From Methanomicrobia archaeon (GTDB lineage: Archaea; Halobacteriota; Bog-38; Methanoflorentales; Methanoflorentaceae): a stretch of DNA of 36,668 nt. The notes beneath the pieces were generated by a model. That model was not told where the DNA came from. It did not search any database and saw only the letters and a list, made by a program, of their open reading frames with translations. Shown here piece after piece: positions 7,311-24,482 of the stretch; position 1 is the first letter of the stretch, and each line of letters opens with the position of its first letter. The DNA lies in assembly GCA_015661395.1 (NCBI GenBank), contig JACWML010000013.1, positions 1-36,668 on the forward strand, read 5' to 3'. The position numbers and the translations under genes were made by a program.

Positions 7311-9578
7311 ATGGGACCACAGGCGAACGAGCGCATACGAGCGAAGATACGCGTTAAGGGCGTTGTGCAAGGGGTAGGCTTCAGGCCGTTCGTTTATGCG
7401 CACGCCGTCGAACTGCAACTGACTGGCTATGTCAAAAACCTTGGTGCGCACGTGGACATCGAGGTAGAGGGGTCGCGCGCCGCTATAGTTCAGCTCATCG
7501 AGTTTCTCAAACAGGGCCCGCCCATTGCGCGCATTGATGATGTAAGCGTGGAATGGGGTCGCCCACGCAAATACACCGAATTCACGATCGAGTCTAGCGG
7601 TGAGGGCGAGTTTGGCTTCACGTCGCCAGACATCGCGATGTGTGACGACTGCCTGCGGGATTTGAGGGAAAGTAGACGGTACGAAGAGTACTGGGCCACT
7701 TCGTGCGTAAATTGCGGTCCACGATTCACAGTGACCGAGAAACTTCCGTATGACCGCGAGACGACCTCGATGATCGACTTTCCCATGTGCTCGGAATGCG
7801 AACGGGAGTACCGCAACCCAAAAGATCGTCGTCATCACGCGCAAACCATCGCGTGCGAACGCTGCGGCCCGACGCTCGTGCTGCTCAACCGGGATTTGCA
7901 GCGCTTAAACGAACCAATCAGCACGGCCGGGCGATTGTTACTCGAAGGCCACGTTCTGGCTATAAAAGGGATTGGCGGCTTTCACCTCGCCTGCATCTTT
8001 GATTCTGCAAGAGAGCTAAAACGACGTTTGGGCAGATCTACGCAGCCCCTCGCGATTATGGCACCGAGCGAGACGTGGGTTGAGGACAATCTCCTCGCAA
8101 ACGGACAAGAGCGCGCACTGCTCACGTCAAACAAACGGCCCATAATGGTCCTCGACAAACGCGTCCAAGGCACGTTTAGCGAAGTCTCGAATCTCCATAA
8201 CATAGGCGTAATGCTTCCCTATAGCGGCCTGCACTACCTCCTCTTTGATATCGTAGATCAGCCACTGATCATGACGAGCGCGAACACGCCCGGCGAGCCG
8301 ATGATTATCGCCATCGATGATGCGCTCGCAAACCTGCGAGAGAAGGCCGATTTTTTCCTACTCCACGATCGGCGGATAGTCAACCGCTGTGACGACTCGG
8401 TACTGCGAGTGCTAGACCAACCTGCATTTATCAGGATGTCGCGCGGGTACGCGCCCGTCTCTTTTGCAGTGCCTGTAACGTACGACAAGAACATTCTCGC
8501 GCTTGGCGCAGAGATGAACGCGACCGTGACGACCTATAAGGACGGCCGGTGCTACATCAGCCAACACGTGGGCAACATCGACAAGCCGAAGACCTTCGAC
8601 TACCTTGAAGCATCCGTCCACAACCTCATCGAAATGAGCGGCGTCGACGTGAGCGTTATCGCGCACGACTACCATCCAACCTTGCGCTCCACACGTCTCG
8701 CCGCCGAGCTCGGAGCCGCTTACGCCGTTCAACACCACCAAGCGCATATCGCGTCGCTCATTGGCGAGGGGGCCCCTAATGACCTCATAGGTATCGCCAT
8801 CGATGGTATCGGCTACGGGTACGACGGTACTATCTGGGGTGGAGAGGTGTTTTTGCCCACTTTAGAACGGATAGGGGGCCTCATACCCGTTCCGATGCCA
8901 GGAGGCGATCTGGCCACGAGGCATCCTGTGCGGATGGTAGCCGGCATCCTGCACGGCATCTACGATGAGGGAGAACTTGCAGCGACGCTCGCCTCGCTTG
9001 GTCTCAGTCAACTCGAGTCGTCGATTCTCCTGCAGCAAATTGAACGGAACGTGAACGTCCCGATGACCTCGAGCACTGGGCGCGTGCTTGACGCTGTTTC
9101 TGCAGCGCTTGGAATATGTCAAAAACGGACCTACGATGGCGAACCGGCAATGACGTTAGAGGGCGTCGCGCGCTACGGTTACCCGGACGTAGCGCTACCG
9201 CTCGAAATTTCGACCTACCGCGATCGGCCGATTCTCGACACTCGACCGGTGCTCGCCGAGATCCTCCACGCAAAAAAGCACGGCCAAAGCACCAAGAACA
9301 TTGCCGCCTCGGCACAGGTCACGATCGCGCGCGGGATTGCAACGATAGCTGCCGAAGCAGCGGAAGCCATCGGAACGAGTAACATCGGACTATCGGGGGG
9401 TGTCGCGTATAATAAGGCTATTGTCACGACGATTAGCGAGGTGTGTGATACGCGCGACCTCGTCCTCTTTACCAATACAAAGGTCCCTCGAGGGGACGGC
9501 GGCGTTTCGTTCGGCCAAGCAATTCTCACCGCTATGGTCAAAAGCGGCAGCTACGATTTCAAACTGTCTGCAACGTGA
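7311..9578 (+). CDS. hypF: Carbamoyltransferase HypF, [NiFe]-hydrogenase maturation
   Basis: HypF uses carbamoyl phosphate and ATP to carbamoylate the C-terminal Cys of HypE, the first step in making the CN ligands of [NiFe]-hydrogenases. All four regions are present in 755 aa. They are an acylphosphatase domain (residues 11-95, VVQGVGFRPFVYAHA), two zinc fingers (Cys111/114/132/135 and Cys160/163/182/185), a YrdC-like domain (about 200-385, KGIGGFHLA), and a Kae1-like C-terminal domain with HHQAH and IAIDGIGYGYDGTIWGGE. The length is normal and there are no frameshifts. No other hyp or hydrogenase gene lies in the window, so this is a detached maturation gene. Its presence implies that the organism makes a [NiFe] hydrogenase. 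Confidence 0.97.
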   Translation: MGPQANERIRAKIRVKGVVQGVGFRPFVYAHAVELQLTGYVKNLGAHVDIEVEGSRAAIVQLIEFLKQGPPIARIDDVSVEWGRPRKYTEFTIESSGEGEFGFTSPDIAMCDDCLRDLRESRRYEEYWATSCVNCGPRFTVTEKLPYDRETTSMIDFPMCSECEREYRNPKDRRHHAQTIACERCGPTLVLLNRDLQRLNEPISTAGRLLLEGHVLAIKGIGGFHLACIFDSARELKRRLGRSTQPLAIMAPSETWVEDNLLANGQERALLTSNKRPIMVLDKRVQGTFSEVSNLHNIGVMLPYSGLHYLLFDIVDQPLIMTSANTPGEPMIIAIDDALANLREKADFFLLHDRRIVNRCDDSVLRVLDQPAFIRMSRGYAPVSFAVPVTYDKNILALGAEMNATVTTYKDGRCYISQHVGNIDKPKTFDYLEASVHNLIEMSGVDVSVIAHDYHPTLRSTRLAAELGAAYAVQHHQAHIASLIGEGAPNDLIGIAIDGIGYGYDGTIWGGEVFLPTLERIGGLIPVPMPGGDLATRHPVRMVAGILHGIYDEGELAATLASLGLSQLESSILLQQIERNVNVPMTSSTGRVLDAVSAALGICQKRTYDGEPAMTLEGVARYGYPDVALPLEISTYRDRPILDTRPVLAEILHAKKHGQSTKNIAASAQVTIARGIATIAAEAAEAIGTSNIGLSGGVAYNKAIVTTISEVCDTRDLVLFTNTKVPRGDGGVSFGQAILTAMVKSGSYDFKLSAT

Positions 9579-15554: not shown

Positions 15555-16169
15555 TCACGACTGGATGACGACGGTGTTTGCGACGCGATCGCCGAGACGC
15601 TGCTTATACTCAGATGCCCAGATAAGTACCGCTCCGAACAGATACGGGGCGATGAACGGGATCAGATCGATGATGCGCAAAATCGTCCGCACTGCAGCCT
15701 CACCATAAGTGATCGGGGAGTAGTCCACTTTTTTTGCGACCTTGATCTTAACGAGCATCTTGCCAACTGTTTGTCCGTTTCGTCCCTCGAGCAGTGTGAA
15801 GTAAAGGAACGCGATGATAACGTCGATCAAGATGAGCGCGCCAAAGAACGGGCTGATTGAGACCTGTGCCGTTGACGCATCAATGGTGATGGTGCCCGCG
15901 CCTGAGAAGCTCAGTATCAAAAAGATGATGGCAAGTATGATTACATCGACGAGTTGTGCGACAAAGCGGATAGCAACCCCCTGCAACAGCGGCGCGGCCG
16001 CATAGTGTTCCTGTGTTTCGGTTGCTCCTGATGGCGCATATACAGAGGCACCCTGCGCTGGTTGACCGGCAGGTGGCGCTTGGCCGGTGAATAGTGCGCC
16101 ACATGCCACGCAGTACTGGGCGCCGGGTGACGCAGGAGTACCGCATTGCGCGCATTTGTCTTCGCTCAC
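15555..16169 (-). CDS. Zinc-ribbon RDD-family membrane protein, paralogue 1
   Basis: The 204-aa protein has an N-terminal zinc ribbon (CAQCG, 12 residues, CVACG), a Pro/Gln-rich linker and an RDD domain from about residue 70. The RDD begins GVAIRFVAQLVDVIILAI, with the family Arg and Asp, and has about three membrane segments. It closes with the TILRIIDLIPFIAPYL and EYKQRLGDRVANTVV stretches. RDD proteins are integral membrane proteins of largely unknown function, some linked to ion or solute transport. The GTG at 16169 is chosen because a perfect GGAGGTGA lies 5 nt upstream; an earlier in-frame GTG overlaps that site. It is one of four tandem paralogues on this strand. Confidence 0.85.
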   Translation of the reverse strand: MSEDKCAQCGTPASPGAQYCVACGALFTGQAPPAGQPAQGASVYAPSGATETQEHYAAAPLLQGVAIRFVAQLVDVIILAIIFLILSFSGAGTITIDASTAQVSISPFFGALILIDVIIAFLYFTLLEGRNGQTVGKMLVKIKVAKKVDYSPITYGEAAVRTILRIIDLIPFIAPYLFGAVLIWASEYKQRLGDRVANTVVIQS

Positions 16170-16213
16170 TGTTTTCACCTCCTTTGCTTTTGTTAAGCCA
16201 TAAGGGGAGCATT

Positions 16214-16235
16214 CCTTTTAATCTTTCTTGCGATT
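16214..16235 (-). promoter_or_regulatory. Shared RDD upstream element, copy 1
   Basis: On the minus strand this reads aatcgcaagaaagattaaaagg. It is nearly identical to the elements upstream of paralogues 2 and 3. The gattaaaagg part fits a TATA box and the caagaaa part fits a BRE, about 45-50 nt from the start codon. Confidence 0.6.
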
Positions 16236-16420
16236 TGCTCTGATTGTGTGCGTGCTGTGGTTTCCTTTCGGCGTTACGCAACGATCGGCTCACTCAATAT
16301 TGCAAAATCGCAACGCGCTGTTCTCATTTCAAATCCTTTCGCTAGATGTGCCTGCCTGCGGGGTCGTACTTGCAGACTCAGAGCGACGATATGCGCAAAG
16401 TTAGCCGGTTATTGGCGAAC

Positions 16421-16450
16421 AAAAAAAGAGAAGAAGGGGCTTACACCCCT
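16421..16450 (-). terminator. Hairpin plus T-run after RDD paralogue 2
   Basis: On the minus strand AGGGG-tgtaag-CCCCT is followed by tcttctcttttttt, starting just past the stop codon at 16453. This has the form of an intrinsic-type terminator. Confidence 0.55.
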
Positions 16451-16452
16451 AA

Positions 16453-17142
16453 TCACGCTTTCAATACGACGGTGTGCGCGACGCGATCGCCGAAACGTTG
16501 TTTCTTGTCTGAGGTCCAAATGAGGATTGCGCCGAGCAGGTAGGGGATGACGTATGGAATCCCGTCGATGACCAACAAAATTGTTCGTATTGCCGCTTCG
16601 CCATAACTGATCGCTGAGTAATCCGCCTCTTTGACTACTTTTATCTTGACTACCATCATGCCCACAGTCTGCCCATAGCGCCCTAGAAGCAATATGAAGT
16701 ACAGAAGAGAGATGATGGCTTCGATCACTGCTGCCGCATAGTTCGCTGCGCCGAAAGGCAAGGCCAGTATTGTGGATATGATGCTTATGATTATTACATC
16801 GATGAGTATCGCGACAAAGCGAATAGCGACGCCCTGATAATGCATTTCAAAGCCTTGTGCAGAGTAAGGCGCTTGCGCCCCTGGTGCTGCGTACGCAGCA
16901 ACGGGCTCCGCGGCTGCTGGGCCTTGGACTGGTTGTGTAACGGCAGCTATTGGTGCGCCACAGCTTTCGCAGAACTTGGCTCCGGGTGCTGCTGGAGTGC
17001 CGCATTGTGTACATTTGTCTTCGTCGACGTGTTTCACCTCCGCAGGTTGCGAAGCGGCCGCAAACGGAGCGCCACAGCTTTCGCAGAACTTGGCTCCGGG
17101 TGCTGCTGGAGTGCCGCATTGTGTACATTTGTCTTCGTCCAA
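16453..17142 (-). CDS. Zinc-ribbon RDD-family membrane protein, paralogue 2, with duplicated zinc ribbon
   Basis: The protein has 229 aa. Unlike its three neighbours it has two zinc ribbons, near residues 6-25 and 44-63, each CTQCG, 12 residues, CESCG. A linker and the RDD domain (GVAIRFVAILIDVIIISI onwards, ending with DKKQRFGDRVAHTVV) follow. The second ribbon comes from an 87-bp direct repeat with 114-bp period, in which the ancestral ribosome binding site now encodes Ala-Glu-Val. The TTG at 17142 is chosen because GGAGGTGA lies 5 nt upstream, as in the paralogues. The ribbon may bind metal or a partner on the cytoplasmic side. The transported or sensed substrate is unknown. Confidence 0.85.
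   Translation of the reverse strand: MDEDKCTQCGTPAAPGAKFCESCGAPFAAASQPAEVKHVDEDKCTQCGTPAAPGAKFCESCGAPIAAVTQPVQGPAAAEPVAAYAAPGAQAPYSAQGFEMHYQGVAIRFVAILIDVIIISIISTILALPFGAANYAAAVIEAIISLLYFILLLGRYGQTVGMMVVKIKVVKEADYSAISYGEAAIRTILLVIDGIPYVIPYLLGAILIWTSDKKQRFGDRVAHTVVLKA
16955..17041. repeat. Intragenic direct repeat, copy A
   Basis: This 87-bp segment matches 17069-17155 at 85 of 87 positions by eye. It covers the zinc-ribbon codons plus the ribosome-binding-site sequence. Confidence 0.9.
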
Positions 17143-17155
17143 GTGTTTCACCTCC
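17069..17155. repeat. Intragenic direct repeat, copy B (original 5' end)
   Basis: This is the partner of 16955-17041, offset by 114 bp. It contains the functional GGAGGTGA of paralogue 2 and its TTG start. Copy A has a GTC where this copy has TTG. Confidence 0.9.
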
Positions 17156-17181
17156 TTTTTTTAAAACAATAGAGTCAGCAT

Positions 17182-17206
17182 CCCTTTTTAATCTTTTCTT
17201 GTGATT
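17182..17206 (-). promoter_or_regulatory. Shared RDD upstream element, copy 2
   Basis: On the minus strand the element reads aatcacaagaaaagattaaa, then aaggg. It matches copies 1 and 3 and includes a TATA-like core and a BRE-like purine tract. Confidence 0.6.
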
Positions 17207-17407
17207 GCAGTCAAACCACTGAATTATACGGATTTTCTCGGATCGGCGCCCTAGAAGCTGGATTCGCGGCGGGCATCAAGAACCAGTCCTCGCTAAAAAG
17301 ATTTATCTTGCGCTTATAATGAGCCGAAACACTCTTCGTGGGGCAGATGTTGTCCGTTTTACACGGCAGGCACCAGCAAAGACCAAAAACTCTGTCGATG
17401 CTAGTGA

Positions 17408-17430
17408 TAAGAAAAGGGGGCACGAGGCCC
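17408..17430 (-). terminator. Hairpin plus T-rich tail after RDD paralogue 3
   Basis: On the minus strand GGGC-ctcgt-GCCC is followed by ccttttcttatc directly after the stop at 17433. The stem is short, so the call is moderate. Confidence 0.4.
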
Positions 17431-17432
17431 AT

Positions 17433-18041
17433 TTATGCTTTAACCACGACCGTGTGCGCGACGCGATCGCCGAGGCGCTGTTTCTCTTCGGAAGACCAAA
17501 TGAGGATTGCGCCCAGCAGATAGGGGATTATATATGGGATCAGATCAAGAAACCGCAGGATCGTTCGGACCGCAGCTTCGGAATAGTCGATCGGTGCGCC
17601 GTCTGCTTCTCGTACGACTTTGATCCTGACGGCCATCTTCCCGACAGTCTGTCCGTAGTGACCCTCTAGCAACGTGAAGTACAAAACAAAGACTGCGAGC
17701 GAAACTAGTCCGCCGACAGCACTGGCCAGTGAAACAGTGACTGTTCCTGAAGCACTGTTCGTAATGACTGCAAGCGCATTGAACGGGATTGACGATATAC
17801 CCCCGATGATGGCTATAATTATGGTATCGATTAGGATCGCGACAAACCGAATGGCGACGCCTTGGTAGGGCGGTGCGATGTGCGGCACGTAAGAACGAGG
17901 TGCTTGATACCCTGGCGCAGGAGCGAACGTGGCCCGTGCGGGTTGTGCTGCTGGGGCCGAGAGTGGTGCGCCACAGCTCTCGCAGTATTTAGTGCCCGGT
18001 GACGCTGGAGTCCCGCATTGTGCACATTGATTTTCGTTCAA
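17433..18041 (-). CDS. Zinc-ribbon RDD-family membrane protein, paralogue 3
   Basis: The 202-aa protein has one N-terminal zinc ribbon (CAQCG, 12 residues, CESCG). A Pro/Ala-rich linker follows, then an RDD domain opening with YQGVAIRFVAILIDTIIIA. The central loop before the second hydrophobic segment is longer than in paralogues 1 and 2 (SNSASGTVTVSLASAVG-type Ser/Thr stretch). It ends with SEEKQRLGDRVAHTVVV. The TTG at 18041 is chosen because GGAGGTGA lies 4 nt upstream. It has its own upstream element and downstream hairpin, so it is probably transcribed alone. Confidence 0.85.
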   Translation of the reverse strand: MNENQCAQCGTPASPGTKYCESCGAPLSAPAAQPARATFAPAPGYQAPRSYVPHIAPPYQGVAIRFVAILIDTIIIAIIGGISSIPFNALAVITNSASGTVTVSLASAVGGLVSLAVFVLYFTLLEGHYGQTVGKMAVRIKVVREADGAPIDYSEAAVRTILRFLDLIPYIIPYLLGAILIWSSEEKQRLGDRVAHTVVVKA

Positions 18042-18076
18042 ATATTTCACCTCCTTCTTAAGCCTTAGGAAAGCTA

Positions 18077-18100
18077 CCCTCTTAATCTTTTCTTGCGATT
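18077..18100 (-). promoter_or_regulatory. Shared RDD upstream element, copy 3
   Basis: On the minus strand it reads aatcgcaagaaaagattaag, then aggg. It is the third copy of the element and lies about 40 nt before the start codon of paralogue 3. Confidence 0.6.
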
Positions 18101-18290
18101 CTACACTGTCGCTCTCAGTGGCCTCGTTTGCTATGAGCGATACCTAGCGTCGATCGACGCGAATAGCGGCTGCAATTTTAGTGCATTCTGCCATGGCAGA
18201 ATCAAGAAACGGGAAATCCACGAGGGGGCAGAGTAGCAGAAGCTAGGCGGTCAGCTATATATCCACAAAACCGGTGCCACTCTAGAACAC

Positions 18291-18315
18291 AAGAAAAGAT
18301 CGGAGCGCGCCGATC
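18291..18315 (-). terminator. Hairpin plus T-run at the end of RDD paralogue 4
   Basis: On the minus strand GATCGG-cgcgct-CCGATC is followed by ttttcttg. The 6-bp stem overlaps the stop codon of paralogue 4. Confidence 0.55.
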
Positions 18316-18925
18316 ACTTGCTGACTACAACAGTGTGTGCGACACGATCTCCGAGGCGCTGTTTCTCATCGGACGTCCAGATAAAAATTGCCCCTATTAG
18401 ATAGTCGAACAAGCCGTCGATGATGCGGAGGACAGTGCGCACAGCTGCTTCTCCGTAGTCGATCGGTGCCCCATCCGCTTCTCGCACGACCTTGATGCTG
18501 AGTGCCATCTTGCCTACCGTTTGCCCATAACGCCCCTCCAACAGCGTAAAGTAGAGGAACCATACGACTAGTCCTACGACAGATAGTGCAATAATAGGCC
18601 CCAGTGAAACCGCTGACACGTTGCCGTTCGTGACGTTGACAGCTATAGCCGCCACGAGGAGTGGGATCGCTAGTATGCCAGAAATAACCCCGATAATGAG
18701 GTAATCAATGAGTATCGCGACAAAGCGAATGGCAACGCCTTGATAGGGCGTAGGAGTGCCCGTGTAGTACGCAGGCGCTTGATAGGTCGGCGAAGGCTGC
18801 ATAGCAGAAGGAACCTGTTGTGAAGGGTGCGCCCTCTGACCGGTCAGCGTCGCGCCACAGGCCGCACAGAATTGTGCGCCTGGCGACGCGGGAGTACCGC
18901 ATTGTGCGCATTCTTCTTCATTCAC
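18314..18925 (-). CDS. Zinc-ribbon RDD-family membrane protein, paralogue 4
   Basis: The 203-aa protein has a zinc ribbon (CAQCG, 12 residues, CAACG), a Pro/Gln linker and an RDD domain starting YQGVAIRFVAILIDYLIIGV. It keeps the TVLRIIDGLFDYLIG and DEKQRLGDRVAHTVVV stretches. The GTG at 18925 is preceded by GGAGTGA at 5 nt, a weaker version of the site used by the other three. The region upstream (atactaaaagc) is TATA-like but lacks the shared element of paralogues 1-3. It is the first of the four in gene order on this strand. Confidence 0.83.
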   Translation of the reverse strand: MNEEECAQCGTPASPGAQFCAACGATLTGQRAHPSQQVPSAMQPSPTYQAPAYYTGTPTPYQGVAIRFVAILIDYLIIGVISGILAIPLLVAAIAVNVTNGNVSAVSLGPIIALSVVGLVVWFLYFTLLEGRYGQTVGKMALSIKVVREADGAPIDYGEAAVRTVLRIIDGLFDYLIGAIFIWTSDEKQRLGDRVAHTVVVSK

Positions 18926-19441
18926 GTATTTCACTCCTTTTTTTAGGAGTGTGCTGCTTTTAGTATTTCAAGCCTTCTTTCGCTTTCAGGATCCGAAAAG
19001 TGCGTTTATGCGCCTCTTAGACGTTGCGAAGGAGATAAATCAGGAGCTTTTCTTGCACGTCAGCCACTTTTGCTGTGAGACGGGCGACGTTCACGTGATG
19101 CGTGACATCGTCCCGCACTTTGCAGCAAGCTACTTTGCCAAACTTTACCAAACTTTACCACTGCGCAATATGCGGGTAGATCGAGTTTGCTTATCGGGCA
19201 AAAAAACGAGCGACCTTTTGCTCGGCAACGTTAACTGCAACATAGATAGATTATATATCTTTTTTTTGTAATCTAAAATATATCTTTAACTTCAGCGGTG
19301 GCGTGCGTTTCCGTCTCGAATCACACGTGAGGACGCTTCATCAATGCGACCGGAACGATCCTAGTATTTGTCGGCCTATCGCCAAGCTCGATTGCTCATA
19401 GTCCAGTATTCGAAACACACTAGCGATTCGTAGCGCGCAAT
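18926..19441. other. Gene-poor stretch between RDD paralogue 4 and the methyltransferase
   Basis: No convincing gene is seen. A + strand frame from 18951 to 19271 has no ribosome binding site and weak protein character. The stretch contains an 11-bp direct repeat (ccaaactttaccaaacttta, near 19137-19160) and an A/T-rich tract at 19240-19290. Confidence 0.5.
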
Positions 19442-20107
19442 CTATTTTAAAGCGGCCTCTTTCCGCTCCACGAAGGAGTAGCTGGCGAGATGCGAAGCAG
19501 ATTTGCTGTGCACTTCAATGGTTCGCAAATCAAGAATCGTAAAATGGGAATCGAAAAGCGCACGGAGCTCGCTTTCGGATGAGAAATACAGCACGGTGCC
19601 TAGCGGTGTCCTTCTATACTTTCCCACGCCGCTAAACGCGGGATCTCTCTCATTGAAGCACAGTGAGAGATACTTTGCTTTTGGATTAAGGAGCCGATGC
19701 ACGTTCGCTACGTACTGCTGGCGCTGCTCAGGGAAAATGTGGTGCAACAACTCCCAATCGTAGGCAAAGTCAAATTTTCCCGTGACGTCTTCCAAATCGC
19801 CGAGGACATCAGCAACAAGAAAAGTGCATTCGACCCCTTTTTTCGTTGCATTCTCCTTGGCGCGCTTGATCGTCGTGGGGGCACTATCCACTCCCGTGAC
19901 CTCAAACCCCCTGCGCGCAAGCCACACCGCGTAGTTGCCGGCACCGCAGCCGAGATCAATCGCTCGGCACGGAGTGACGATTCGACTGTTGACGAGCGCC
20001 ACCAGCGCCTCAGGTGGGGTTTCTATGTTCCAAGGAATCAGCTCCAGAGGTGTCTTTTGGTAAATCTCGTCAATCTCGATGTGCTTCATGGGATCAAAGT
20101 TGGTCAC
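19442..20107 (-). CDS. Class I SAM-dependent methyltransferase
   Basis: The protein has 221 aa from a GTG at 20107, or 215 aa from an ATG at 20089 (MKHIEIDEIYQ). The SAM-binding fold is clear: motif I AIDLGCGAGNYAVWLA (about 55-70), the acidic strand-2 end TGVDSAP, TFLVADVL and the motif-IV-like FDFAYDWELLHHI. The C-terminal half (RTPLGTVLYFSSESEL) resembles thiopurine/tellurite-type small-molecule methyltransferases, but the substrate cannot be deduced. Neither start has a strong ribosome binding site. The 51-aa zinc-ribbon gene lies 150 nt upstream on the same strand. Confidence 0.85.
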   Translation of the reverse strand: MTNFDPMKHIEIDEIYQKTPLELIPWNIETPPEALVALVNSRIVTPCRAIDLGCGAGNYAVWLARRGFEVTGVDSAPTTIKRAKENATKKGVECTFLVADVLGDLEDVTGKFDFAYDWELLHHIFPEQRQQYVANVHRLLNPKAKYLSLCFNERDPAFSGVGKYRRTPLGTVLYFSSESELRALFDSHFTILDLRTIEVHSKSASHLASYSFVERKEAALK

Positions 20108-20634: not shown

Positions 20635-20802
20635 CTACCCGAATTTTGGCGTGAAACGCTTGCCGCTGTCGCCGGGATAAGGTTCCGTATGGCGAAAGCG
20701 ATTTTCCCATATCTCCAGAGGTATCGAAGCAAAGGCCTGACAGACGCGGGGGCTAATGTAGTTCTTACAACTTTGACACAACGGGATGTTTTTTTGTTTC
20801 AC
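20635..20802 (-). CDS. Small Cys-containing protein, 55 aa, end of the nitrogenase-like cassette
   Basis: The protein reads MKQKNIPLCQSCKNYISPR, then VCQAFASIPLEIWENRFRH, then TEPYPGDSGKRFTPKFG. Three cysteines (9, 12, 21) sit in CQSC and VCQAF and could bind a metal. The C-terminal pattern (IP-EIW, H, PYPGD-G-RF-P) recalls a widespread family of small conserved proteins of unknown function. The GTG at 20802 is chosen because GAGGCGAAC directly precedes it; a stop lies 13 codons upstream. It begins 42 nt after the NifH-like gene on the same strand, so it is probably co-transcribed. A role as electron carrier or assembly helper is conjecture. Confidence 0.75.
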   Translation of the reverse strand: MKQKNIPLCQSCKNYISPRVCQAFASIPLEIWENRFRHTEPYPGDSGKRFTPKFG

Positions 20803-20844
20803 GTTCGCCTCACACGGCAGGCAACGGTTTGGCCGCTAAGCCGG

Positions 20845-21699
20845 TCAAATGGCCTCAGCCCTCACCAGGTGTTGCCGATATAGGTCTTCGAGCTCGGGCA
20901 GCTCCTCCACAGGCGTCGGGATCACTTTCACGTCGTTTTCCATCACCTTCCGCGCAAGATCCCGGAAAATCGCCGCCTCCTCTGACTGAGGGGCATGTTC
21001 GACCACGGCGCGCCCTTCGAGCTCGCACGCTTGAATGACGGAGCTGCGCGGAACAAATTCCACAAACGCGCTGCCCAAACGCTGAGCAAACGCAGGAACC
21101 ACGGCCCGCTCCAACGCCTCATCGCCGTTGCTGTTGCAGATTATCCCTGACAGCCCTGTGTCGCCGCGGCGCGCAAGACGTTGCACCGCCCGCGCAATGT
21201 TGTTCGCCGCGTAGATGCTCATAAAGCCTCCGGAACAAACGAGGTAGATCTCACTCGCAAATCCTTCGCGGATGGGCATCGCAAACCCGCCGCAGACGAC
21301 GTCGCCGAGCACGTCGTAAATGGCCACGTCAATCGCAAAGGTTTCAAACGCCTTGAGGTCTTTCAGAATTTGGAGCGCCGTGAGAACCCCGCGCCCCGCA
21401 CAGCCGATTCCAGGCTCCGGACCTCCCGCTTCGACGCAGTAGATGCCGCTTGGCGTCTTAAAGACGATGTCGTCGAGCGAAATGGCGTGCGCGTCCTGTC
21501 CGTGGCGCAGCTTGTCTCTGTAGATCTCCAAGACAGCGGGGATGAGGTGCCCACCCGCGAGTATCCTCGTTGAGTCTCGCTTTGGGTCGCAGCCGACCTG
21601 CATGACGTTGACCCCTCGCTCATTGAGGGCCGCTGAGATGTTCGAAGCGATGGTGCTCTTTCCGATTCCTCCCTTACCATAGATTGCGATTTGTTTCAT
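20845..21699 (-). CDS. NifH-like ATPase (nitrogenase reductase superfamily)
   Basis: The 284-aa protein is a full-length NifH/ChlL/CfbC-type homodimeric Fe-protein. It has the P-loop YGKGGIGKST (7-16), VGCDPKRDST (35-44) and the two [4Fe-4S] cysteines, GPEPGIGCAGRGV (Cys100, with the NifH ADP-ribosylation-type Arg103) and DVLGDVVCGGFAMPIR (Cys136). It would couple ATP hydrolysis to low-potential electron transfer to its D/K partner. The ATG at 21699 has AGAGGAGAC about 8 nt upstream; the longer frame is a reading into the previous gene. It starts 13 nt after the NifK-like stop. Group IV membership (CfbC, MarH and unknown types) is inferred from context, not from a tree. Confidence 0.93.
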   Translation of the reverse strand: MKQIAIYGKGGIGKSTIASNISAALNERGVNVMQVGCDPKRDSTRILAGGHLIPAVLEIYRDKLRHGQDAHAISLDDIVFKTPSGIYCVEAGGPEPGIGCAGRGVLTALQILKDLKAFETFAIDVAIYDVLGDVVCGGFAMPIREGFASEIYLVCSGGFMSIYAANNIARAVQRLARRGDTGLSGIICNSNGDEALERAVVPAFAQRLGSAFVEFVPRSSVIQACELEGRAVVEHAPQSEEAAIFRDLARKVMENDVKVIPTPVEELPELEDLYRQHLVRAEAI

Positions 21700-21712
21700 T
21701 GTGATGTCTCCT

Positions 21713-23167
21713 CTACCAGCGTGCCGCGTACCGCCGTTGCGTTGACCGCCACCGATCGCTCCACTCGTTCTGGATGCACTCGAGCAGATTGAGGATGCCG
21801 CGGTAGCCGAAGTACTCCCGATTGAGCAACCGGAACTGCCTGACAGGGCGCACGACCTCAAAGATGTACGGTACGTCCAAGCCCTCGCTCGCGTGTCGCT
21901 CGATTGTGCTCCCGAAAACGACCCGCGGCCGCACCGCCTCTAGGCTCCGCCGCGTCGCAAAGACGTCAGTCCCGTACGCGACCTGCGGAGCCAGGCCGAG
22001 GTCGTTCAGCTCTTTTTCAAGCAGGCGCTGTGCTTCGGGATGCGCCGAGCGAAGGGCAACGAGCGCGGGCGTCAGCTCCATCTCCTCGGTCGCAAAGCGG
22101 ACAAGGGGGATGCCGACCGTGGCGTCAGCTACGATAGCTGCGGGAGTCCGATAGAAAAAGCGCGCTACTGGCCAGCGCCGGCGACATGTTTCCATTACTG
22201 TGCGCTCGCCTTCGGCGATCAGCTCCTCGGCCGAGCGCTCTGCGTCGAACCGCTCTCCCAGCGCAGTGAGCCAGCGCCGCGTGTTGGTCATCCCGATGGG
22301 GAGGGGAAGATCCCAACAGAGCGGTTCGACCCCAAAAGTGTCGACAAGATGCTTGACCGCCCCGTAACCCGCGTCGTGGCTTAACTGAAGCACCCCCTCG
22401 GCGGCCGACACGCTTGCAAACTCGCTGAGCGCCGTTGCGTGGGTGAGCGTAGCGAGTACCTGAACGCCGAGCTGGCCGAGAACGTTCTTTACCCATTCCA
22501 GATCGGCCATCCACGTTGGATTGGCGTTAGCGTGCGGAGCGACGAGGCACACCGAGTGCGGGATCTTAGGACACCCGTTCCCGGTAAGCGCGCGAAGCAT
22601 CGCGTCGAGCGCGAGATCGATGCCATCGTATTGCGAACCGCGAAAACCGGCGCACTCGATGGGAACAATCGTGAAGTCAACCCGGGGTTGCATTTCCTCG
22701 CACACCGCAATGATATCGTCGCCCACGATCTCGGGCCCGCACGCGCTTAGAACGAAGAGCGCGGCGATGTCGAGCTCTTTGGCCTCAAGGATCGTGCGCG
22801 CAAGGAGCTCCTCGCCTCCGTGGACGATTTCATCCTCGCAGAGCTTGGTGCACAGCGTCGTCGTTTGGGCGTAGTCGCAGTCCTGCCAAGAAAAGGCACC
22901 GTCAACGAGATAATTGCACCCCTGTGGTGCGTGAGCGAGAACGGCACTGTCACTGACTCCTAACGCTGTTTGGGCTGCGCCGCTCAGAGCACACCTGACG
23001 TACGGGTCAAGGCACGCATCGGTGGCCGTCGTGCGCGCGGCATGCGTCTGGTCAGTTTGTTTCGTTTCCGTAGAGCATCCCTCGAAAAAGCGTCGAACGC
23101 GGCAGGCGCTGGTTTTCCATAGCTTGTCTGAGCAGTGCGGCGATGTTGTGTATGCCCCGGAAGCCAT
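21713..23167 (-). CDS. Nitrogenase-like NifK/NifD-family subunit
   Basis: The frame gives 484 residues, but the true N-terminus is uncertain. Recognisable sequence begins near residue 54. Three cysteines match P-cluster-type ligands: Cys59 (VRCALSGAAQ), Cys84 (HAPQGCNY, 25 residues later) and Cys143 (SACGPEIVGDD). CTKLCEDEIVHGGEELL and the closing EYFGYRGILNL are also family-typical. The only in-frame ATG (23167) overlaps the NifD-like gene by 116 nt and has no ribosome binding site. No ATG, GTG or TTG occurs between the NifD-like stop and Cys59. It is followed by the NifH-like gene after 13 nt. It is probably the partner subunit of a heterotetramer. Confidence 0.88.
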   Translation of the reverse strand: MASGAYTTSPHCSDKLWKTSACRVRRFFEGCSTETKQTDQTHAARTTATDACLDPYVRCALSGAAQTALGVSDSAVLAHAPQGCNYLVDGAFSWQDCDYAQTTTLCTKLCEDEIVHGGEELLARTILEAKELDIAALFVLSACGPEIVGDDIIAVCEEMQPRVDFTIVPIECAGFRGSQYDGIDLALDAMLRALTGNGCPKIPHSVCLVAPHANANPTWMADLEWVKNVLGQLGVQVLATLTHATALSEFASVSAAEGVLQLSHDAGYGAVKHLVDTFGVEPLCWDLPLPIGMTNTRRWLTALGERFDAERSAEELIAEGERTVMETCRRRWPVARFFYRTPAAIVADATVGIPLVRFATEEMELTPALVALRSAHPEAQRLLEKELNDLGLAPQVAYGTDVFATRRSLEAVRPRVVFGSTIERHASEGLDVPYIFEVVRPVRQFRLLNREYFGYRGILNLLECIQNEWSDRWRSTQRRYAARW

Positions 23168-24482
23168 AGTGGGGCAGGTACACAGGATTGAGGAGTGTGA
23201 GGTTTACAACCGGACACCCTGGAAAGCGGGCGGCGTTGCCGAAGAATATCGGGTCGTCAAGACCTTGTGCGATTGCCTCGAGCTCGCCCTCCGTCTCGCG
23301 CGACGAACGAAAGCTGCCGAGACGGAAGAGGCCTTTCGTGAGAATCACTTCGGGATTGACCCCAGTGTCCAAGAGGAACTTGATACTGGGCATACGCTCC
23401 TTGATCGTATAAGGATGCACGTTAATGACGACCGGATGAGCGCCGCATTCTTCTGCCATACGCGCAAGAGAGAGCGCCCGTATCGGACCGGGAAACTCTG
23501 ATATCTCGATAACGGCAGTTTTGCCGTCGAGCGTGTCATGCAAGTAGGCTAAATCGGGCCGAATGCGTTCCGTCTCGCGCTTTATTACCCGTGTGGCCTC
23601 CTTCCTCATACCCAGCGGGCCCGCGATCCCCATGAGCCATTCCTCTGTCGCTTTGAGCCCGTAGGGCTGTCCAGTCCTACTGTACGGGATGCCAAAGCGC
23701 GCTTCCATGGCGTCACCAAGCTTCTGTCCCCAGTCGTAACACCACGAGGCATTCAGCTCGACTTCGCGCGCCCGCCTGATCTCATCCACCGTACACCCGC
23801 CAGCGATCACCGCGTTGATCTTAACCCCCACCTCGTGCAGCAGCTTTGTGATCTCATCAAGGTCGTCGCTGAACTCGGTAAGTGATGGGCCCATTCGCGC
23901 CCCGATAAGATTGATCGTTCCCTTCCGCATGGTTTTCGGCGGCTCCATCAGGTCCATAATGAGCTCAAATGCGTCCTCGTAGCCGCTGCGGAAGTCGCCG
24001 CCAAACCCCTCGCTGCGAAGCGCGAGCACGTGGGCGTGCACGAGCTTTTCGGCCTCACGGGCGACGCTTTCGACGTCGTCGCCGATGATCCCGGAGCAGC
24101 AGCAAGAGAGGATGACGATAAGATCGGGGTGGTAGCGCTCGTCCGCCTCCTTGACCGCTTCGAGCAGCTTCCCTTCGCCGCCGTAGATGACGTTCGTCTC
24201 GTCAAGGGAGGTGCAGGCAGTTGGCTCGAGGGGAACGCCGCGGAACTCGCAGCACTCCCTCGTCCTTACGATATCTGAGACCCATAAGGGGCATCCCGTA
24301 GGACCGTGCACCAGGGGGACCACGTGCCGAATCCCGTTGATGACATAAAACGAAGTGAAGAACTTGCACATCGGCGCGTGCGATGCCTGCAGCTTCGGAA
24401 CCATCTCGCCCGCTTCGACCTTCTCGACGAGCTGCTGTAGAGTTCCGTGAAAAACGATCTCGTCCATTTCGTCAGGTTCCAT
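23052..24482 (-). CDS. Nitrogenase-like NifD/NifE-family subunit
   Basis: The 476-aa component-1-type oxidoreductase has Cys39 (APMCKFF), Cys64 (VHGPTGCPLW, spaced as NifD Cys62/Cys88) and an unusual triple cysteine at 127-129 (SCCCSGIIGDD, at the NifD Cys154 position). A further Cys248 in WCYDWGQKLG lies 19 residues before the Tyr of FGIPY, exactly as FeMo-co ligand Cys275 lies before GIPW in NifD. The C-terminal PHYGFRGI replaces the NifD PYHGYDG region, so the His ligand is shifted by one. CfbD of F430 synthesis is a single-subunit type with a different N-terminus, so it is a poor match. The ATG has GGAG at 8 nt. It is first in the cassette, behind a TATA-like box. The substrate is unknown. 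Confidence 0.9.
   Translation of the reverse strand: MEPDEMDEIVFHGTLQQLVEKVEAGEMVPKLQASHAPMCKFFTSFYVINGIRHVVPLVHGPTGCPLWVSDIVRTRECCEFRGVPLEPTACTSLDETNVIYGGEGKLLEAVKEADERYHPDLIVILSCCCSGIIGDDVESVAREAEKLVHAHVLALRSEGFGGDFRSGYEDAFELIMDLMEPPKTMRKGTINLIGARMGPSLTEFSDDLDEITKLLHEVGVKINAVIAGGCTVDEIRRAREVELNASWCYDWGQKLGDAMEARFGIPYSRTGQPYGLKATEEWLMGIAGPLGMRKEATRVIKRETERIRPDLAYLHDTLDGKTAVIEISEFPGPIRALSLARMAEECGAHPVVINVHPYTIKERMPSIKFLLDTGVNPEVILTKGLFRLGSFRSSRETEGELEAIAQGLDDPIFFGNAARFPGCPVVNLTLLNPVYLPHYGFRGIHNIAALLRQAMENQRLPRSTLFRGMLYGNETN

Follow-up and report, generated by a model that had tools for sequence, protein, structure and literature searches.

The stretch of DNA analyzed here, referred to as the window, comprises positions 1 to 36,668 of contig JACWML010000013.1 from a Methanomicrobia archaeon (assembly GCA_015661395.1) and carries a nitrogenase-like gene cassette, D-K-H, followed by a gene for a small cysteine protein. 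An initial annotation, made from the DNA letters without database searches, had described four same-strand genes encoding NifD-like, NifK-like and NifH-like proteins and a 55-amino-acid cysteine protein, preceded by a TATA-like promoter. Gene calls and Pfam searches placed all four genes as described, on the minus strand. The NifD/VnfE-like subunit D (23052..24482, 476 amino acids) and the NifK/VnfN-like subunit K (21713..23167) match PF00148 as their sole Pfam family, with 242.8 and 245.2 bits, respectively, and the NifH-type ATP-dependent reductase H (20845..21699, 284 amino acids) matches PF00142 with 320 bits. The gene for the 55-amino-acid protein lies at 20635..20802. The start of K is uncertain: its sole ATG/GTG/TTG candidate overlaps D by 116 nucleotides, and the conserved part of K begins at about position 23008. 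The TATA-like stretch, ACTATTATAAATGC, is present ~80–95 bp upstream of the D ATG, a feature recognized from sequence only. No NCBIfam equivalog cut-off was reached by D, K or H, and the BchZ model gave 39.8 bits against a cut-off of 529.

The cassette is genuine and its conservation goes far beyond chance, because D-K-H recurs in several archaeal families and dozens of named genomes, and the ratio of nonsynonymous to synonymous substitution rates (dN/dS) is low, at ~0.03–0.11 for D, K and H inside the genus. When a single genome of each species was scanned, 44 loci emerged, in Methanoregula, Methanolinea, Methanosarcina, Methanothrix, Ca. Methanolliviera, a Bathyarchaeon, Dehalococcoidia and Anaerolineae, and the gene order D-K-H is retained across loci and across several archaeal families. 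D proteins are 87–96% identical among congeners and 69–80% identical in other families. Genome G398 (5,751,492 bp) has D-K-H followed by a methyltransferase gene, with a vnfH-I1-I2-D-G-K-E-N cluster, its genes named by homology and order, half a megabase off. In genome G002, a frameshift or stop codon divides D (L042 3883-5195), which may be a sequencing error or mark a pseudogene.

To explore the relationships of D and K, a joint tree was built from 81 component-1 proteins, BchN and BchB among them. D was the sister of Nostoc VnfE and K the sister of Nostoc VnfN, each with 100% support in the Shimodaira–Hasegawa-like approximate likelihood ratio test (SH-aLRT). Careful separate trees of D and K, in which VnfEN was represented by Nostoc and Methanosarcina, joined D to VnfE and K to VnfN with support of 100/99 in both cases. 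The D clade (96/100) and VnfE (100/100) are reciprocally monophyletic, so that the new proteins are kin of VnfEN and do not lie inside it; the H clade has support of 98/96. The clades comprise 45 D and 43 K proteins from methanogens, Bathyarchaeota and Chloroflexota, and they lie outside Nif, Mar, BchNB and Cfb, with BchN and BchB placed elsewhere on long branches in the joint tree. The initial annotation had regarded the set as uncharacterized, with two component-1 subunits and a NifH, and the placement outside NifDK and MarDK agrees with it. The annotation had also seen a likeness to the overall plan of a nitrogenase or methylthio-alkane reductase, with features of its own. It had not considered VnfE and VnfN, the nearest relatives. 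By these comparisons, D-K-H appears to be an outsider to the characterized families whose closest known relative is VnfEN, the cofactor scaffold of V-nitrogenase. VnfEN of Nostoc and Methanosarcina do not cluster with NifEN in these trees; the published view derives VnfEN, as in A. vinelandii, from a duplication of NifEN (PMC7216921). Wide-ranging groups of NifE/NifN-like pairs have been described (Dos Santos et al., 2012; PMC3464626); these have three cysteines each and an equivalent of C275 and are without H442, and the D-K clade may be among them. No account of the D-K clade, its kinship with VnfEN, its NifB linkage or its function was found in the open-access literature searched, and a search for the Methanosarcina copy by presumed locus tags also turned up nothing relevant.

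Matches to known structures might suggest that the cassette encodes a methylthio-alkane reductase proper, orthologous to Mar. MarD, MarK and MarH are the top sequence matches in the Protein Data Bank (PDB), and MarD and MarK are the top fold matches of AlphaFold models of D and K (predicted template modeling score, pTM, 0.84 and 0.83, respectively). When D or K was forced into the Mar/Nfl group, however, the approximately unbiased (AU) test rejected the grouping (p 0.0011 for D and 0.0007 for K). The Loop I hallmark of Mar, R428-H429, reads Gly415-Asn/Ser/Thr416 in 45/45 D proteins, the position of Mar W195 is occupied by Arg, and the cassette is without the O-acetylhomoserine sulfhydrylase or transporter neighbors seen at the Nfl loci of Treponema and Chlorohelix. 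The trees, the AU tests and the absent R-H loop ruled out Mar membership despite the best PDB match, and orthology to Mar is very improbable.

In Chloroflexota, the operon has the order D-K-H-NifB. Nine Chloroflexota/Bathyarchaeota loci have a gene for a minimal NifB downstream of D-K-H, in seven of them directly after H; NifB is ~1.1 kb from D-K-H at L084, and H at L087 (5496-6383) had been concealed by the gene caller. Three of these NifB proteins were tested against TIGR01290 and scored 238–348 bits, one of them over the cut-off. Six Chloroflexota genomes (G102–G107) each have a single NifB and a single NifH, and their two PF00148 proteins are D and K. In a seventh (G101), D and K are likewise the only PF00148 proteins, H is interrupted by N, and no NifB match was obtained. 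McrC is absent from all eight bacterial/Bathyarchaeal genomes. In the Chloroflexota carriers, whose draft genomes may be incomplete, the single NifB and the lack of both McrC and any further PF00148 protein suggest that the NifB product has no known recipient besides D-K. The initial annotation had noted no nifE, nifN, nifB, hyp or cfb neighbors, which must be qualified in two respects: a hypF gene is present in the window at 7311-9578 (TIGR00143, 732 bits), ~11 kb from the cassette, and the cassettes of bacteria and Bathyarchaeota have a linked NifB, the host nifB being on another contig.

Candidate cluster ligands were compared in an alignment of 45 D, 43 K and seven VnfE proteins. The [4Fe-4S]- and P-cluster-type cysteines that were visible at the outset are as described, and those of P-cluster type are invariant: C39, C64 and C128 in all D proteins (NifD C62, C88 and C154) and C6, C31 and C90, numbered from position 23008, in all K proteins (NifK C70, C95 and C153). 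The cofactor-type cysteine D C248, equivalent to NifD C275 and MarD C270, is also invariant, as is D H356, VnfE included. The D-K clade has three further invariant cysteines, D C127, K C57 and K C154, that VnfEN does not have. Position 438 of D is Gln in 32 proteins, His in 10, Arg in two and a gap in one, whereas it is Arg in 7/7 VnfE. The second ligand of the NifB-derived [Fe8S9C] (L-type) cluster is Gln in NifEN and His in NifD (PMC13031127), and D438, set by the alignment one residue before H442, is therefore a candidate for the same role.

These residues bear on the idea of a minimal nitrogenase, in which an L-cluster on D-K would reduce N2 without NifDK. NifEN loaded with the L-cluster weakly reduces N2, in vitro as well as in E. 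coli (PMC13245594), and D-K-H-NifB could be the natural counterpart of that set. However, NifD Q191 and H195 are replaced in D by Arg165 and Tyr/Phe168, NifD H442 is replaced by Tyr439 in all but one or two D proteins, and some carriers already own real nitrogenases, as illustrated by the vnf cluster of G398. Such an activity is accordingly quite improbable. Membership in the nitrogenases themselves was rejected: C275 is kept as C248, but the three other residues are replaced, the proteins fall outside the clade and no model cut-off was reached.

A weightier alternative is that D-K is a maturation scaffold like VnfEN, which would take the NifB cluster, modify it with H and pass it to another enzyme. 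The fully supported sisterhood with VnfE and VnfN favors this, a gene set of E-N-H-B type corresponds to the requirements of a maturase, and in methanogens an L-cluster may be used by the activation complex of methyl-coenzyme M reductase (MCR) (PMC12176620). Yet the seven Chloroflexota genomes offer no known recipient, and the catalytic NifDK or VnfDK that accompanies a VnfEN or NifEN scaffold was not found in them. Position 438 is Gln or His in 42/45 D proteins rather than the Arg of all VnfE, and VnfEN is missing the three additional cysteines of D and K. A purely scaffolding role is thus rather unlikely, and it is chiefly the want of another recipient for the NifB product that favors an [Fe8S9C] reductase.

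Our preferred interpretation, with a probability of about 0.6, is that D-K-H is an ATP-driven reductase in which electrons pass from H through a P-cluster to an [Fe8S9C] cluster and on to a small substrate. It is suggested by the invariance of the six P-cluster cysteines and C248, the NifB linkage, the genomes with a single known recipient and the Mar-like fold; MarDK, which has P- and [Fe8S9C] clusters, shows the same cysteine pattern (PMC12552129). In the mechanism that we infer, D2K2 would be the nitrogenase-like catalytic component and H2 its ATP-dependent reductase. The [4Fe-4S] cluster of H would supply electrons to a P-cluster bound by six cysteines, three from D and three from K, and they would pass on to an L-type cluster made by NifB and bound in D by Cys248, with Gln/His438 or His356 as the probable second, weaker ligand. 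The small substrate, probably neither N2 nor a tetrapyrrole, would be reduced at this cluster, so that the enzyme would work in the mode of methylthio-alkane reductase with a pocket built differently. The sequences themselves document the clade, the ligand pattern, the operon and the NifB linkage, and from these the cluster type, catalysis and substrate are deduced. Several observations weigh against this interpretation. No conserved gene at the loci points to a substrate, and the alignment shows no conserved strong second cluster ligand (His). The structural models are single chains free of clusters, with several low-confidence loops, and the loops predicted around the cavity are weak. Finally, the six cysteines are also retained in VnfEN, a sister that is a scaffold and not an enzyme, and the cysteine pattern is therefore no proof of catalysis.

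The host assembly is 2.16 Mb in size and 88% complete, and its closest named relatives are metagenome-assembled genomes labeled 'Methanomicrobia' and 'Euryarchaeota', several of which bear peat or fen sample names. A search for nifB, cfbCD and methanogenesis genes, proposed with the initial annotation, located contiguous cfbB-cfbD-cfbE, without cfbC, on contig C30 (G023 has cfbE-D-C-B), nifB on C102 and mcrC on C23. From these genes, the host is evidently a methanogen or close kin of one. The H of the window was the sole NifH-family match in a search of the host genome, and no second full NifH was found in the six congeners, leaving aside small P-loop fragments and a duplicated piece of the cassette in one instance. 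G004 (85% complete) and G006 (70% complete) yielded neither D nor K, but H is intact in both, with the 55-amino-acid protein alongside; the G006 H is 97% identical to that of the window, with dN/dS of ~0.05. Synthesis of F430 requires a CfbC-type reductase. As the sole full NifH found, retained even in species that yielded neither D nor K, H probably has CfbD as a second partner in the host genus. Between the window genome and G003 (H at L037 7020-7874), H has a far smaller synonymous distance (0.26) than D (0.68) or K (0.78), a pattern that recombination of H or a stronger constraint on it could produce. In G008 (99% complete), the sole NifH gene found adjoins other component-1-like genes and the cfb cluster is without cfbC; this NifH, part of a small H-D-K-like operon, may serve CfbD there.

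That the whole cassette encodes a tetrapyrrole reductase like CfbCD, DPOR or COR is a far more remote prospect. H scores as high against the CfbC model as against the nifH model (346.8 bits, both under cut-off), and the host makes F430. On the other hand, CfbD is encoded by a separate, distant gene of the same genome, the NifB linkage and the cofactor cysteine are foreign to tetrapyrrole reductases, and the cassette is present in Chloroflexota without McrC. The argument of the initial annotation that two distinct component-1 subunits set the cassette apart from CfbCD was borne out, and CfbCD was rejected as its identity.

Of the genes downstream of H, the one for the 55-amino-acid cysteine protein is real and is kept beside H in 7/7 genomes of the genus (tblastn, full length in congeners). 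The same search found none at the examined cassette loci of other genera, so that its inclusion in the cassette is amended to that of a genus-level neighbor. It was rejected as a subunit on the same grounds and because it accompanies H even in the absence of D and K. A TPMT-like SAM-dependent methyltransferase is encoded at 19442..20107 on the minus strand (PF13649, 73.6 bits; PF05724, 49 bits). Its gene adjoins H in several methanogens and lies 37 bp after H in G398. In G003, G004 and G006, the gene is disrupted or cut short; being broken or missing in several congeners, it was rejected as a core part and is regarded as an optional partner. The methyltransferase hints at a methylated substrate, short of proof, and a small organosulfur or other methylated compound may tentatively be put forward as the substrate class. 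An argument from sulfur-related neighbors was abandoned because no conserved sulfur gene was seen at the cassette loci.

Besides D and K, the only PF00148 proteins in the host genome are CfbD and a NifD-like protein whose gene lies on two contig ends (L003 1465-1845, contig C92; L005 1480-1827, contig C69). This lone protein of ~390–430 amino acids, without K or H, is 39% identical to D across ~320 residues and occurs in the host genus and other Methanomicrobiales (L043 9381-10553, L044, L045, L046 and L047); in L046, its gene adjoins a cfb cluster. Another small H-D-K-like operon, with component-1-like proteins of ~350–410 amino acids, occurs at L048, L034 and L035 and at G008:C1:15907. Long frames of 739 and 764 amino acids led by a NifH domain (L187 9938-12157, Bathyarchaeota; G398:C1:2521866-2522666) are apparently NifH-NifE-like fusions as in Dos Santos et al. 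(2012). Elsewhere in the window, four adjacent genes at 15555-18934 encode related membrane proteins of ~205–232 amino acids with an N-terminal CxxC...CxxC zinc-ribbon-like motif.

Few enzymes are candidates for use of the nitrogenase-type [Fe8S9C] cluster, and the cassette adds to them a distinct and apparently self-contained branch in methanogens and Chloroflexota. Because D-K is sister to VnfEN, it is also relevant to the question of whether scaffolds of the NifEN kind were reductases at first. A bolder proposal, made tentatively, is that D-K-H-NifB is a self-contained L-cluster reductase lineage with a third mode of holding [Fe8S9C] and a new reaction, and that VnfEN of cyanobacteria and Methanosarcina was drawn from its stock; VnfEN would then have more than one origin, and not only the duplication of NifEN.

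Comparison with known systems places the cassette most closely beside VnfEN of Nostoc and Methanosarcina. Both subunits are 37–38% identical to their sisters over nearly their full length, and they share with them the six cysteines, C248, H356 and R165. VnfEN sits in vnf clusters with VnfDGK, whereas D-K-H stands alone as an operon that includes an H gene and, in bacteria, NifB; D438 and the extra cysteines also separate the two. MarBHDK resembles the cassette in combining D-K, H and a NifB-type protein, in the P-cluster cysteines and C270 equivalent, and in fold, but it is a separate clade and has the R428-H429 of Loop I and the W195 that D is missing, as well as sulfur-metabolism neighbors. 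NifDK, VnfDK and AnfDK share the plan of component 1 and Fe protein, the P-cluster cysteines and C275; they belong to another clade and have the Q191, H195 and H442 that D is missing. IsrBHDK is likewise a stand-alone HDK set with a radical SAM protein, but IsrD keeps one of three cysteines and is without C275, and the Isr radical SAM enzyme is BciD-like (PMC11423573). By this published description, D-K, with all its cysteines and NifB, is set apart from Isr, and isethionate reductase was rejected as a candidate on the cysteine pattern and radical SAM partner. CfbCD also pairs a NifH-type reductase with a component-1 homolog in methanogens, and H of the host genus may serve CfbD; CfbD is homodimeric and has no large cluster, whereas D-K is a pair of distinct subunits that would hold one.
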